Assembly (NCBI RefSeq): GCF_000003815.2 | Contig: NC_049983.1 | Location: 26,161,003 to 26,225,002, forward strand | DNA length: 64,000 nt | Direction: 5' to 3' | Source of the DNA: Branchiostoma floridae | Lineage: Eukaryota; Chordata; Leptocardii; Amphioxiformes; Branchiostomatidae | Shown here: piece by piece, positions 56,904-63,174 of the stretch | How the letters are laid out: every line of letters starts with the position of its first letter | How positions within the stretch are numbered: the first letter of the stretch is position 1 | Position numbers and translations under genes: made by a program | The notes under the pieces: generated by a model | The model's input: the letters and a program-made list of their open reading frames with translations, nothing else | What the model was told of the DNA's origin: nothing | Database searches by the model: none

Positions 56904-56907
56904 TTTA

Positions 56908-57379
56908 GGTCAGACATTAAAGTTGCTTGCTTCCATTGAAGCCTAGCATAAGAGACAGTGAAACAAGTCCTTGTAAAAGAACTTACCTTTAGTTCAATCT
57001 TAAAAATTCTTCTCCAGCAGTTAGGCACAAGGGAATACTTGAGAAACATGCAAAGAAAACAGAGGGTTGTTTGGCTCGTTCACCCAGCACAGCTGACCAA
57101 AGAAAACAAACCTCACCTTTGACCCAGTTTCACTCCTGTAGCCATCCGCTGGACCCAACAACTCAGATCTATCACTACGCCATCAAAACTGGTCAACTGA
57201 AGAAATTTTGACCAAAATATGAAAGATAAGACCCTAGTTGTCACTTCTAGCAAAAAAAAACTCAAGATTGGGCAAAAATTTCCAAGGAAAAAGAAGGATT
57301 TTCAAAGGTTTTAAGTAGGGACTATAATCGTCTTCCCATTTTTGGCCCTTTCTGCGCAAGACAACACTGACGTCAGCCC
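56908..57379 (+). repeat. Left terminal direct repeat (472 bp)
   Basis: Same orientation and length as 60776-61247. GGTCAGACATT at the outer edge and GACGTCAGCCC at the inner edge. No differences from the right repeat were noticed, which implies a young insertion or recent homogenisation. Confidence 0.9.
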
Positions 57380-58079
57380 TACTGGGGATGCCAAATAGGC
57401 AGAATTCGTGTTTTCTGCACTTCAAAGTTAAGAGGGAAGAGTTCTAAGACACACAACAAAATATTAAAGCTTTCTGACATTCAATGAGCATATGACAGCA
57501 ATCAATCAAACAGGTGTCTGTAAGAGCCAGGGTGAGCATTGCAAGCTTAGCTGTGAACATAGTGGCTAAGGCAGGGCAGCAGAGTAACAACATTTTTTTG
57601 AGAATTGAGGGCAATATGGTCAAAACTGGGCACAACACAATAAAGGTGAAAGGGTCCAGCTTTCAAAACCACCTTGATGTTAATTTTGAACACCACTTTT
57701 ATGACATTTTGAGGCATTTTAATAAGTTAGTCCCCAGAAGTGGGTCAAGCCAATTCTATACATTTCTCTGCCTTTTCAGTCATCAAAGTTCATTTTATTA
57801 GAAAACTTGAGGTCCACTCATGGCTCTTACATACACCTACACACACCTGAATGACAAAGTTTCCCGGAATGTGCATGGAAAGTTGAAAATGACAACATTT
57901 CCTGGATACTCTTTCTACTTCCTGGGCTTTCCCAGGTCAGTCACTCTCCCAGGGGGCTTGGGGCCATTAATAACAACACCCACTGGCCATGTCAAAACGC
58001 CCTATAAACTTGAGCAGGTTTCTCCAAGAATCTCAGACTTTATCCAGACAGAGAACCGCATTCACCTTACCGAGCTACC
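57380..58079 (+). other. 5' internal region of the 4.3-kb element
   Basis: 700 bases between the left repeat and the transposase start. It contains a small open frame (from 57820) that overlaps the transposase start in another frame. The sequence is pyrimidine-rich near 57950. Probably leader or promoter; nothing else recognised. Confidence 0.4.
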
Positions 58080-60200
58080 ATGCCACAGAAGAAGAAAGTC
58101 AGCGACAAGCGTCACATGTTCAAGATGGGCGACACACCATGGAACAAAGGTGAGAAGGTCCCTCATGCTGAACGGGCAGATCCACCAACCTACCAGAGGC
58201 CGACAGAAGAACAGTACAATCTCATGGTCAACACAGGCAGAGATGGAGAACCAATCCTCGACCTCGCCAGGATAGCTGTGGAGCCAAGCAGGCCTCCACT
58301 TCTACGGCCAAAGAGGGAAGCATGCAGCAAGATTGACAGGATCTTGGGCACACAGGGTGATGAGGGAGATGAGAGTGCTGACCAAGATACAATAGCAGGC
58401 TACAGAATCTGGCTGGCAGAAGCTGCGATCAGGGCGTGTGCCACTTCCCAGAGAGAACATGACACAAGAGTACCTGAACCTGGGAAACCTGTGTGTAAAG
58501 AGCTGGTTCGACTGTCCAGGCAGAGAGAGGTGAAAAGAGGCCTGGTCACATCGGAAGTGTTCGTCTGCACCGCCTGTGAGTACGAATCAGATGAGTACAA
58601 GTTTTATGACGAAATCGAAAGGAGCGGTCCGGGTCAGAAGATAGCTGTACCAAACATGGCACTGCAAATAGCTCTGTTCAACAACCCAATTGGTCCGAAG
58701 AACTTTATGGAAATCGCTGCAGCACTGGACTTACCTGTACCAAGCCTGGGTGGGATGCAGTGGACTGCTAACAAATACACTCAGATTATCATAGACGAAA
58801 ATCGGAGGGACATGAGGAGATGGGGTGACATTGTAAAAGCAGCCAATGCAGCTACCGGGAAAGGGGCACACTGTCCCATAAAAGGAGAAGCTGATGCAAG
58901 GTATCAGAGTCCACTGAATTCTGGGCGAGGACGCAAGCCTGGACAGCCCTCATCCCACAGCTTCGGGACATTTGCTGAAAATGAAACAAACATGAAGAAG
59001 ATCCTTGCAGTGTACCTGAGGAATAAGTTATGCACAACGTGCAACCTTGGAGTAGACAAAGGAGAAGGCCACAAGTGCTCAGCCAACATTGCTAAGCATG
59101 CCGTGATCGGGGATGAGGCAGAACTCGGACGTCAGATAGGGAAGGAACTTTTAAAGAACCATATCATAGTTTCTCACCTTGTCCACGATGGCGACGCACA
59201 TTTGGTAACCGGGATGTCCGAGGTAATGGAGGAACACACAGGCATGCCCACAAAATCCCTTGCAGACACAGTTCACCTGTCCAGAAAGACAGCACAGAAG
59301 GCAACTCAAGGAACCTGGAGTCCCCACATGTGGCCTGGAAAGACCCGGGCCGACAAGAGACGAGTTCAGAACAGGTTTGGGGATGACCTGAAGCAGAGAC
59401 TAGAGGCCGAACACAAGAAAGCTCTCGAGAAATGTGGGAGAAATAAGGACAAGATAGAGGAGATGATGCGGAAGGCATCAGATGCCATTGTCATGTGCTA
59501 CCTGGATGGCGACCACACCCTCTGCAGGAAACATTCACTTGTATGCAGTGGCCAGAGTAAGGTATGGGGCTTCAGTTTCTTTCCTGATGGCACAAAGGAG
59601 AAGCTGTGCCCTGACGAGGAAGACAGAGAGGAGGTGAAGAAGATGATAGAGAAGAGGCTAGGAGAAGAGGCATTATACGCAACAAGGTATGGACTAAACA
59701 CAAACAGGGTGGAGGCAGCAAATCGTCAGTACAGTAAATCAGTGCCAAAGAACCGTACCTTGTCAAGAACTCTGGAAGGTCACTACGCGTCAGCTGTACA
59801 CAGTGCCAACAACGGAACAGCTGCGTCTATCCTCATGAAGCGCAAGGCAGCTGGGATACCCCTGTCCCCAAGGTCACCTGCAGTTGAAGCCCTGAAAGAA
59901 ATGGAGAAAATTGAAGATTACAAGAGAGCCTACCACAAAGAACTTGCAACTAAAAAACGGCGCAAAGCCAAGAGGGTCAAAGAATTCCAAACTTACAATG
60001 AAACCAAGGACATAGGGCACTACAAAAGCAAAGCCGAGGAAGCGGAAGATGTTCCAGCCAAGAGACTGAGAAGGAAAGCAGCGCCGAAACAGCAGAGAGG
60101 TAAATCGGATCACGTGTACAGCAGGGTTAACGGCGAATCACTACCAACATGGTCAAAGAAGAAGAAGCAGAAAAACTGGACCGAGCCCGAGGACAACTGA
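58080..60200 (+). CDS. DDE/Mutator-like transposase
   Basis: 706 residues from an ATG in a fair context (A at -3). The N-terminus is basic (MPQKKKVSDKRHMFKMG). A CTACEYESDEYKFY segment and NPIGPKNFMEIAAALDLPVP resemble the zinc-ribbon and 'G..NF..I' region that precedes the catalytic core in animal Mutator-like transposases. Candidate acidic residues are D in GEADARYQS, DGD in LVHDGDAHLVTG and E in NTNRVEAANRQY. CYLDGDHTLCRKHSLVC could be the Cys/His insertion seen in that group. The last 100 residues are very Lys/Arg-rich, consistent with DNA binding or nuclear import. It is uninterrupted, so possibly active. I place it in the DDE transposases with moderate confidence; Mutator-like is my best guess and KDZ or Kolobok relatives are not excluded. 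Direct terminal repeats are not usual for any of these. Confidence 0.7.
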   Translation: MPQKKKVSDKRHMFKMGDTPWNKGEKVPHAERADPPTYQRPTEEQYNLMVNTGRDGEPILDLARIAVEPSRPPLLRPKREACSKIDRILGTQGDEGDESADQDTIAGYRIWLAEAAIRACATSQREHDTRVPEPGKPVCKELVRLSRQREVKRGLVTSEVFVCTACEYESDEYKFYDEIERSGPGQKIAVPNMALQIALFNNPIGPKNFMEIAAALDLPVPSLGGMQWTANKYTQIIIDENRRDMRRWGDIVKAANAATGKGAHCPIKGEADARYQSPLNSGRGRKPGQPSSHSFGTFAENETNMKKILAVYLRNKLCTTCNLGVDKGEGHKCSANIAKHAVIGDEAELGRQIGKELLKNHIIVSHLVHDGDAHLVTGMSEVMEEHTGMPTKSLADTVHLSRKTAQKATQGTWSPHMWPGKTRADKRRVQNRFGDDLKQRLEAEHKKALEKCGRNKDKIEEMMRKASDAIVMCYLDGDHTLCRKHSLVCSGQSKVWGFSFFPDGTKEKLCPDEEDREEVKKMIEKRLGEEALYATRYGLNTNRVEAANRQYSKSVPKNRTLSRTLEGHYASAVHSANNGTAASILMKRKAAGIPLSPRSPAVEALKEMEKIEDYKRAYHKELATKKRRKAKRVKEFQTYNETKDIGHYKSKAEEAEDVPAKRLRRKAAPKQQRGKSDHVYSRVNGESLPTWSKKKKQKNWTEPEDN

Positions 60201-60219
60201 ATGAACTGAACACCCCACC

Positions 60220-60603
60220 TCAATCCTCAAAGATGCAGTCTGGGTAGCCATCATGTTTGCGGCTGCAGACGCGGTTGAAATGACACCTCTGTCTGGAATT
60301 GTTTACAGAATGCGGCTCTGCTGAAAGATGATCAATGTTCGCGCACAAGGGCGAGTGACAAAGGTGACTGATATCCAGATTCGTGAGATTCAACCTGCCC
60401 GTGACAGCCATGAAATAAACCTTGTGGATCGTCCATTTGCTGGGTTTCGGCATGAGTCTCCCGGGAAACCACGAGACAGAAATCTTACCATAGCCACCGG
60501 AGACATGACCTCGCCATAGCATGCAGGACTTCCTACGATCTGGACACTGACGTAATCTGTGCTCTATCTTAGCCCTGAACTCTCTCTGCCAATGTTCTGC
60601 CAT
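60220..60603 (-). CDS. Zinc-binding His-Me finger (HNH-like) endonuclease
   Basis: 127 residues from MAEHWQREFRAKIEHRLRQ. The start at 60603 was chosen because it has A at -3 and begins the conserved part; the open frame runs on to 60753. CMLWRGHVSGGYGKI, then DISHLCHSPLCANIDHLSAE and NNSRQRCHFNRVC..H..YPDC match the pattern of zinc-binding loops and a His-Me core known from I-PpoI-type nucleases (zf-His_Me_endon family). The catalytic His would be the H of SHLCH, with the downstream Asn of SVNNSRQ as metal ligand. It faces the transposase, stops 20 bases apart, and was likely carried as a second enzyme of the element. Confidence 0.78.
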   Translation of the reverse strand: MAEHWQREFRAKIEHRLRQCPDRRKSCMLWRGHVSGGYGKISVSWFPGRLMPKPSKWTIHKVYFMAVTGRLNLTNLDISHLCHSPLCANIDHLSAEPHSVNNSRQRCHFNRVCSRKHDGYPDCIFED

Positions 60604-60775
60604 ATTGTACGCAAAAAAACGCTCAAAACGTGAAGAAATGTGAGAAATGCTGAATAAAAATCTATAGAGGAATGTCACATGTGTCTGTCTAATCTGTTTG
60701 GGATCAAATATCGGAAGTAATCTGCATAAAAAAGTCGTTAGAAAAGGGAACACTATATGGGGAGGGGGGCGTACA

Positions 60776-61247
60776 GGTCAGACATTAAAGTTGCTTGCTT
60801 CCATTGAAGCCTAGCATAAGAGACAGTGAAACAAGTCCTTGTAAAAGAACTTACCTTTAGTTCAATCTTAAAAATTCTTCTCCAGCAGTTAGGCACAAGG
60901 GAATACTTGAGAAACATGCAAAGAAAACAGAGGGTTGTTTGGCTCGTTCACCCAGCACAGCTGACCAAAGAAAACAAACCTCACCTTTGACCCAGTTTCA
61001 CTCCTGTAGCCATCCGCTGGACCCAACAACTCAGATCTATCACTACGCCATCAAAACTGGTCAACTGAAGAAATTTTGACCAAAATATGAAAGATAAGAC
61101 CCTAGTTGTCACTTCTAGCAAAAAAAAACTCAAGATTGGGCAAAAATTTCCAAGGAAAAAGAAGGATTTTCAAAGGTTTTAAGTAGGGACTATAATCGTC
61201 TTCCCATTTTTGGCCCTTTCTGCGCAAGACAACACTGACGTCAGCCC
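60776..61247 (+). repeat. Right terminal direct repeat (472 bp)
   Basis: Partner of 56908-57379, same orientation. It is preceded by a G-rich stretch (GGGGAGGGGGGCG) that closes the internal region. Confidence 0.9.
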
Positions 61248-61251
61248 TTTA

Positions 61252-62165
61252 CATAGTGGTCACCGCCATGGTGGGAGGGAAGGGGATGGAACAGTCCATT
61301 CCTTTACCAGGGGGAGTGAAACTGATCTCCATATCTAAACATCTTAGTGCAAACGAGTGGGGTCTATGACCCGGGCACACCTTGGCGTTTTGTTGTCACG
61401 GATTGTCGAGTATGTTTCAATTTTCAGGACGGTAACTTGCACAGATATTTGCAAGTCCCTAAGATAGTTCTTATTCTAATGAACCGAGTCCGCGGTACAA
61501 ATGTATCTGTCTGAAATGCCAGGTCCCGGGTTGTCATGGATCGTTCAGAGGGGCGGCAGAAAACCGGGCCGGGGGGAGTGAAACTGAACTCCATATCTAA
61601 ACATTTTAGTACAAAAGAGTGGGGTCAATGACCTTGGACACCTTGGTGTTTTGTTGTCACGGATCGTCGCGTTTGTCCAGGACGGTAACATGCACATGTA
61701 TTTGAACGTCCCTTAGATGGAAGTCCTTATTCTAATGAACTTAGTCCGCGGTACAAGTGTATTTGTTTGAAATGACTAACCTGCACACATGCACGGGCCC
61801 TGGTTTGTCATGGATAGGTCAGGTGGGGGGGGGGGACCTATCTATGATCTGAATAGATGATTCCACTAACTTGTCAAAGGGTTCTCGACTGCCTCCCTGC
61901 CACCTCCATGGTGGGAGTTAAGGGGCTGGAACAATCGTCAGGCGTCAATGACCTGGGCACACCTTGGTGTTTTGTTGTCACGGATCGTCGCGTATGGTCA
62001 GAACGGTAACTTGCACGGGTATTTGCGCCTGTCCATGGTCCCTAGGATAGAAGTCTTTATTCTAATGAACTGAGTCCGCGGCACCGGTGTATCTGTTTAA
62101 CAATGCCTAAACTGCACACATGCACAGACCCTGGGTTGTCATGGATCGTTCAGAGGGGCGGCAGC
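61252..62165. repeat. Distal half of the DTM-B promoter and about three tandem repeats
   Basis: Starts with the CACCGCCATGGTGGGAGGG block separated from its gene by the transposon. It then has ~270-330-bp units with GACCCGGGCACACCTTGG, CACGGATTGTCGAGTATG and CCCGGGTTGTCATGGATCG (near 61397, 61662 and 61980), as at 36980-38240. No gene. Confidence 0.75.
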
Positions 62166-63174
62166 AAACCTTTTTTCATGTAGGGAGAGCGAAGTATTCC
62201 TGACCAAATTTGCAGCATGTTACGCGCAGGAAGTGCGACAATCCTTGGGGGTCTGGGTGCATGCTGCCCCGGATAAAGTTGGGAAAAGTTTGAAATCTTG
62301 CTATTTCCCGCATTTTGAGGGATAAATTCTGCTGGTAGCCTAAGTTCAATGTCATTGTTATCTTAGCAAATCAAGGGTTTTGCCCCAAACATATTCTTAC
62401 AACGTCCAACGCCGAAGGTTCAAACGTTTCAAGGATCAACTTTCATTAGTATTGATCCTGAAGACGGCAACAGCGGTAGTTGAAATTTGATCCGTTTGTA
62501 CTTGTGTTGGAAGAAAGTTTGGCTTTGTACTGTGATAACTAACTACACTAATTACTAACTGCATTAAAGGTCTGCAACTCTTCACGGCTGATTCTGGTGT
62601 CAGTTCCAAGCAGAGTTTGGGAAGGTAGAATAGTAACGTTCTGACTTTCCCGCTAAGGCATAATAAAAGGTTCTACACTCAAAATAATTTTGATATAAGA
62701 ACAGTCTGTTTATTATGCTTGATGAAATATATTTCAAGAGAAATCACTTGAAACATACGATTTTGTTCCTTGCAAGTCTGGTTTATCCAGGCGTTTCAAA
62801 CAAATTTACAACATTTTGACTAGCTCTGAAACTCTTGCTTAAATGCATAATAACCTCGTTAAACCACTTCATTATCGTTAATGAACTTACCAGCAATTAA
62901 AAAGCAGGCACATTTGCTGCTAAAAGAAAAAAAAGTGTTGCGATTCTCCTAGTCACCAAGTACAATCAGGTTTCTTAAAGAAATTCTTCCAGAAATGTAA
63001 TCATTAGTAATTCAGAATTACCTATCCACGCCCAAAAGATTCTTTTGGAAACCACGAACTTGTATTTTAAGCCGTCTTCTGTTGATGCACTACTTCTTGG
63101 CCGTGTCTGGATGTTTGTATCCGATCCAGGCAACTGTTATGAGGGAAGATGGTGTGGTTTGTTGACCGGTGCTA

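Follow-up and report, generated by a model that had tools for sequence, protein, structure and literature searches.

Does a DNA element that is bounded by long direct repeats, as a retroelement would be, but encodes a transposase belong to a new class of transposon or to one already known? The question is raised by a 4,340-bp mobile element of Branchiostoma floridae, which occupies positions 56908–61247 of the window, the 64,000-nucleotide stretch of contig NC_049983.1 (positions 26,161,003 to 26,225,002) analyzed here. A preliminary description had offered two answers: two short elements combined into a composite around an enzyme block, or a new transposon class whose nuclease and transposase cooperate. 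Measured against the published description, the element is, with high confidence, an autonomous KolobokP DNA transposon. The proposal of a new class is rejected, as the kind has already been published under that name. Because both reading frames are open and the terminal repeats are identical, the insertion is probably young.

Anatomy and assignment to KolobokP

The element has the layout long terminal direct repeat (LTDR), internal region (INT), LTDR (Table 1). An exact match of 474 bp joins positions 56907–57380 to 60775–61248 in the same orientation and consists of the 472-bp repeat unit plus one shared base on either side, bearing out the direct terminal repeats of the preliminary description. 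Each repeat, with GG...CC termini, has its own imperfect inverted ends, GGTCAGACATTAAAGTTG against GGGCTGACGTCAGTGTTG. The TTTA site duplication is present at both outer edges. The predicted 706-codon plus-strand and 127-codon minus-strand open reading frames (ORFs) were likewise recovered, the latter reading from ATG 60603 to its stop at 60220, or over 177 codons from an upstream GTG. The two ORFs are convergent, with 19 bases between their stop codons instead of the 20 given previously.

Table 1. Coordinates of the element's parts within the window
Feature	Positions	Strand	Remarks
Target-site duplication, left copy	56904–56907	no strand	TTTA
Left LTDR	56908–57379	+	472 bp, GGTCAGAC...GACGTCAGCCC
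INT	57380–60775	+	3396 bp, first bases TACTGGGG, last bases GTACA
DDE transposase	58080–60200	+	706 aa, PF20700; D272, D370, E545 invariant in 6/6 aligned relatives
I-PpoI-like His-Me nuclease	60220–60603	-	127 aa from ATG; PF05551, phrog_826 matches
Right LTDR	60776–61247	+	identical to left LTDR
Target-site duplication, right copy	61248–61251	no strand	TTTA

Both protein assignments held up when the two large interior ORFs, along with a small one, were scanned against Pfam. The transposase, described beforehand as DDE-like, matches PF20700 (Mutator-like transposase) with E=1.5e-50, and the suspected His-Me endonuclease matches PF05551 (E=3.8e-10) and the phrog_826 HNH endonuclease (E=2.6e-14). 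The remaining Pfam rows at E<=1 are Swi5 for the transposase (0.6) and HNH_3 for the nuclease (0.00019, below its cut-off); no reverse transcriptase or integrase family occurs among these rows for the two proteins, in agreement with the absence noted earlier. Besides an HMM search against DDE families, the preliminary description had called for the D-D-E triad to be located by alignment. We aligned the transposase with those of five related loci (L029, L030, L031, L033 and L034; identities 46, 45, 43, 22 and 23%), and the triad listed in Table 1 is invariant among them. The CHCC finger before the last E (C473, H479, C482, C489) is invariant in all six proteins, and a C/DxxH motif is found in all six, in the window as DTVH at 396–399. 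A CCHC finger that follows the first D (C318, C321, H331, C333) is present in the window, L029, L030 and L031 proteins, absent from L033 and incomplete in L034. A sequence search of the transposase against solved structures returned only weak WD-40 matches.

S79, H80, H92, E96 and N101 of the nuclease, together with the ligands C27, C82, C87, C107, C113, H117 and C123, are invariant in 6/6 aligned nucleases, with eight Cys/His residues conserved in all. In an alignment with I-PpoI (1evw; phmmer E=0.0062, weak by itself), the catalytic residues fall on those of I-PpoI, numbered S97, H98, H110, E114 and N119 in PMC9587614. The His-Cys-box active site and zinc ligands are common to the window nuclease and the homing endonuclease I-PpoI of Physarum (1evw, 1cz0, 1a73), the difference being that a group I intron carries I-PpoI and a transposon carries the enzyme studied here. 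A structure predicted from six nuclease sequences (mean predicted local distance difference test score, pLDDT, 81.5) adds little.

Within the Kolobok superfamily, KolobokP forms one lineage (Kojima and Bao 2022, Mobile DNA 13:24, PMC9587614). That paper, our source for all KolobokP features given here, reports 228 families in seven animal phyla, with B. floridae, B. belcheri and B. japonicum among the hosts. In a collection of open-licence PMC papers, we found no other that uses the name. The LTDR-INT-LTDR layout is common to both, with KolobokP repeats of ~450 or 660 bp beside 472 bp in the window, and oyster families span 4,022–4,748 bp, a range that includes the window element. KolobokP repeats have short inverted ends of their own and RR...YY termini, as in the window, and site duplications of 3–5 bp, compared with TTTA here and 4 bp in elements of a sister family treated below. 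The C/DxxH motif, the finger before the last E and the CCHC finger after the first D, which mark the KolobokP transposase, are all in the window protein. A DDE transposase on the plus strand followed by an I-PpoI-like nuclease on the complementary strand is the arrangement in both. KolobokP also occurs as solo repeats, (LTDR-INT)n-LTDR multimers and INT-INT and INT-LTDR forms, represented here by solos of the window family and by the sister family and an array on C10. Each defining feature that we tested was found in the window copy or in the sister family.

The preliminary description had tied its claim of novelty to there being no known family of the same architecture. By the text of PMC9587614 there is one, and because the KolobokP architecture is published there, the claim falls. 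The proposed partnership of nuclease and transposase named a real architecture, although not a new one, since KolobokP is built of these same parts, arranged as they are here. The composite of two short elements comes close to the published description, in that the repeats have their own inverted ends and related solo repeats have their own 4-bp duplications. Ordinary Kolobok elements with terminal inverted repeats share with the window element the C/DxxH motif, the zinc finger before the last E and 4-bp duplications, but, as described in PMC9587614, they are without long direct repeats and target TTAA, whereas the target here is looser and a nuclease is carried. The window therefore adds little by itself, its kind being published; with its open frames and identical repeats, it is a convenient chordate copy for studying how KolobokP moves and what the nuclease does.

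Recurrence in the genome

We searched the B. floridae genome (513,431,437 bases, 431 contigs) with the 472-bp repeat, as the preliminary description had proposed. The best 40 of 331 candidates were scored. They comprise the window pair, two single copies at 98–99% (on C5 and C12) and distant groups at 82–89% and 76%. The two single copies are solo repeats of the window family, with duplications TTCA and TACT.

The 76% similarity is that of the sister family, whose interior is mostly non-autonomous and ~0.9 kb long. Among the best 40 of its 530 candidates, we find nine two-repeat elements (18 rows), a dimer (C263, three rows), the two outermost repeats of a multimer (C197), a right repeat with interior (C10:6994865) and 16 repeats that we classed as solos. 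Perfect 4-bp duplications flank all nine two-repeat elements (TTAA, TATA, TCTA, TACA, TATA, TATA, TTGA, AATA and TACA) and 14 of the 16 solos, L026 and L027 included. Since nine sister-family elements repeat the arrangement of the window element, each with a 4-bp duplication, that arrangement is far beyond chance. The duplications favor one form: 22/27 read TNNA (10 composites and 17 solos, the latter including L009, L010 and L011), compared with 8.65% of window positions. Counting four further duplications (TCTA at L018, AAAA at L054, TTTT at L029 and TTAA on C2) gives 24/31. This preference is stronger than in PMC9587614, where, for three molluscs, the text states no strong preference.

The gene pair itself recurs as well. 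With 41 of 70 transposase matches and all 37 nuclease matches taken in, 16 of the nuclease matches follow a transposase match of opposite strand, 26–699 bp downstream of it, placing the convergent pair at 15 sites. Of the six transposase loci that we read, five have the pair between direct repeats: the window element, L029 (a 481-bp match, 99.4%), L031 (470 bp, 99.8%), C2 (L034 with L052; identical at 483/483, TTAA on both sides counted in) and C10, a tandem array of three repeats and two interiors at 99.6–99.9%. The C2 relative starts with C, outside the RR...YY rule. Compared with the window repeat, those of L029, L031 and C2 show only stretches of 18–28 bp, or nothing, at E<=0.01.

Several observations weigh against the KolobokP assignment or its uniform application. 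Among the 40 scored hits, no full copy of the window family was found apart from that in the window, and therefore, solos aside, the evidence from multimers and from the footprint described below comes from the sister and other families. Two sister-family solos (L062 and L063) are without a perfect duplication, as are five of the seven distant inverted-end solos in which both ends were found (L014, L015, L017, L019 and L022, with L011 and L018 as the perfect cases). At L031, no perfect site duplication was found, and no direct repeat was found at L033 within the 5101 bp fetched, 100 of which are N.

Variant forms of the elements were also encountered. L079/L065 has the INT-LTDR form, with an interior and a right repeat only; its left side reads TTCACTG/TACTGGG and its right duplication is TGTA, so its left repeat was apparently excised and two bases were lost. 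L024 is unusable as a further case of a lost left repeat, as its left side consists of N. In the L080 multimer, the interiors abut directly, with a loss of ~3–4 bp at the junction. L071 (C11:7235236-7237609) is a sister-family element with a TATA duplication and a 2374-bp interior, in which the usual 0.9-kb tips surround other sequence with two copies of a 126-codon GTG frame, 984 bp apart. In L012 (4300–5198) and L013 (2185–3084 and 6320–6827), the left end of the interior is inverted against the left end of the repeat (..CCCCAGTACA/GGTCAGAC), which suggests an interior turned around with respect to the repeats; these repeats match at positions 1–415 only and lie within a larger duplicated stretch. 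At L015 (2588–6908), two repeats of the inverted-end group, ~4 kb apart, sit at the edges of an extended array built from short TACCTTGG-type units.

Movement of the element and equality of its repeats

To judge by its DDE residues, by the inverted ends and by the site duplications, the transposase would recognize the imperfect inverted ends present on every repeat. By acting on the outermost ends, it could move the whole element, or, by acting on the two ends of one repeat, that repeat alone, with targets of the form TNNA preferred. The I-PpoI-like nuclease may cut within the repeats or next to them; if the break were then repaired against another repeat, solos, multimers and pairs of equal repeats could result. 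That a repeat can move separately is supported by the solos with duplications of their own and by the L079/L065 footprint, and has been argued for clams in PMC9587614.

Whether the two repeats of an element are equal bears directly on the choice between simple transposition as a composite and a mechanism in which the repeats are rebuilt. In the sister family, left and right repeats show no difference over 471 bp in any of the nine elements. Five of the nine depart from the majority sequence, always in both repeats of the element (at position 356; at 351 and 435; at 445; and at 344 in two elements). Random pairing of the 18 repeats produced nine identical pairs in 0/200,000 shuffles. From the eight unique variants in 16 solos, ~9 one-sided variants would be expected among the 18 repeats that form pairs, but there are none (P ~1.2e-4); the interior rate, 22 unique variants in eight elements, gives an expectation of ~23. 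The interior rate leaves out a scrambled stretch by the N-run of L025 as well as C11a, which has a longer, different interior, and the pair count leaves out L024 and L065, since the partner repeat is masked by N or missing. The repeat pair of each of these nine elements behaves as one sequence.

A composite that moves by plain cut-and-paste does not predict such equality. It suggests either an intermediate with a single repeat or conversion of one repeat by the other, in which the nuclease may have a part. Within KolobokP, an insertion might be built from a single repeat, by opening an LTDR-INT circle at the two repeat ends and filling in, or repeated nuclease-driven conversion might keep the pair equal. 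We hold this possibility tentatively, at somewhat below even chances. The identical pairs, the variants shared by both repeats and the shuffles speak for it, and PMC9587614 considers an LTDR-INT circle too. Against it, one variant of the C263 dimer (297) is one-sided and the L029 and L031 pairs differ slightly; scoring the best 40 of 530 candidates would miss pairs in which one repeat has diverged strongly, and near-identical repeats may have been equalized by the assembler. No LTDR-INT circle was encountered, though no search for abutted repeats gave a result. The equality of repeat pairs seems untreated in the main text of PMC9587614, which mentions gene conversion once, in another connection. 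If the rebuilding or conversion account is true, a DNA transposon would regenerate terminal repeats resembling long terminal repeats (LTRs) without reverse transcription, and the repeats of one element would always change together.

The competing account of an ordinary composite of the bacterial type, with two mobile repeats around a passenger, whole-element cut-and-paste only and repeats drifting independently, is rather unlikely. It fits the imperfect inverted ends of the repeats, the similar repeats that stand alone with their own duplications and the one element, L079/L065, that lost its left repeat; in bacterial composite transposons, too, other genes are flanked by a pair of mobile repeats, each with inverted ends of its own (compared in PMC9587614). 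Here, however, the transposase lies in the interior and not inside the repeats, and the repeats of a pair change together through element-specific variants that independent drift does not predict. That the element is a retroelement with true LTRs whose reverse transcriptase has been lost is hardly credible, even though the identical direct repeats at its ends, the solos and the short duplication of the target would suit it. The ends are GG...CC and not TG...CA, neither protein matches a reverse transcriptase or integrase family in the Pfam scan, and the PF20700 transposase has been kept along with its repeats in divergent families; we reject an LTR retroelement, as a conserved DDE transposase and nuclease stand where the retroviral genes would. 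Segmental duplication or an assembly artefact, with short repeat copies placed by chance around unrelated genes, is just as improbable. Runs of N do occur near some copies in the assembly, but the same layout is found at nine elements of the sister family, which differ in their flanks and duplications, and also where the repeats are overall unlike those of the window, in other families. The recurrence in these nine elements and the window element, with differing duplications, leads us to reject it.

Distant relatives, neighboring repeats and shared motifs

L033 (C11:23375600-23380700) combines a distant transposase of 22% identity with a convergent nuclease. A related pair of matches is spaced 4152 bp apart at C2:16466138-16472892, perhaps as a tandem array. 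To the right of the window element, positions 61261–62170 hold a diverged array with units of ~260–330 bp (direct-repeat families D2–D5, D7–D9 and D12), for which Tandem Repeats Finder gave no report.

Otherwise unlike repeat families (window, L026, L011, L029, L031, C2 and C10) share short motifs at matching places. CATTG lies at ~27–31 of the repeats, and ACTTACC at 74–80 in the window, L011 and L029, with variants in L031 and L026 and a position of ~100 in C10; C2 is without it. The near-diagonal scores of the window–L029 and window–C2 comparisons were reached by 0/200 shuffles, while for 10 of the 15 compared pairs some shuffles reached the score. Read on the minus strand, ACTTACC becomes GGTAAGT, the splice-donor consensus, and an acceptor-like TTTTTTATGCAG precedes the window nuclease, with a similar sequence in L030, none in L031 and a doubtful one in L029. 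The right repeat may supply the promoter and first exon of the nuclease gene.

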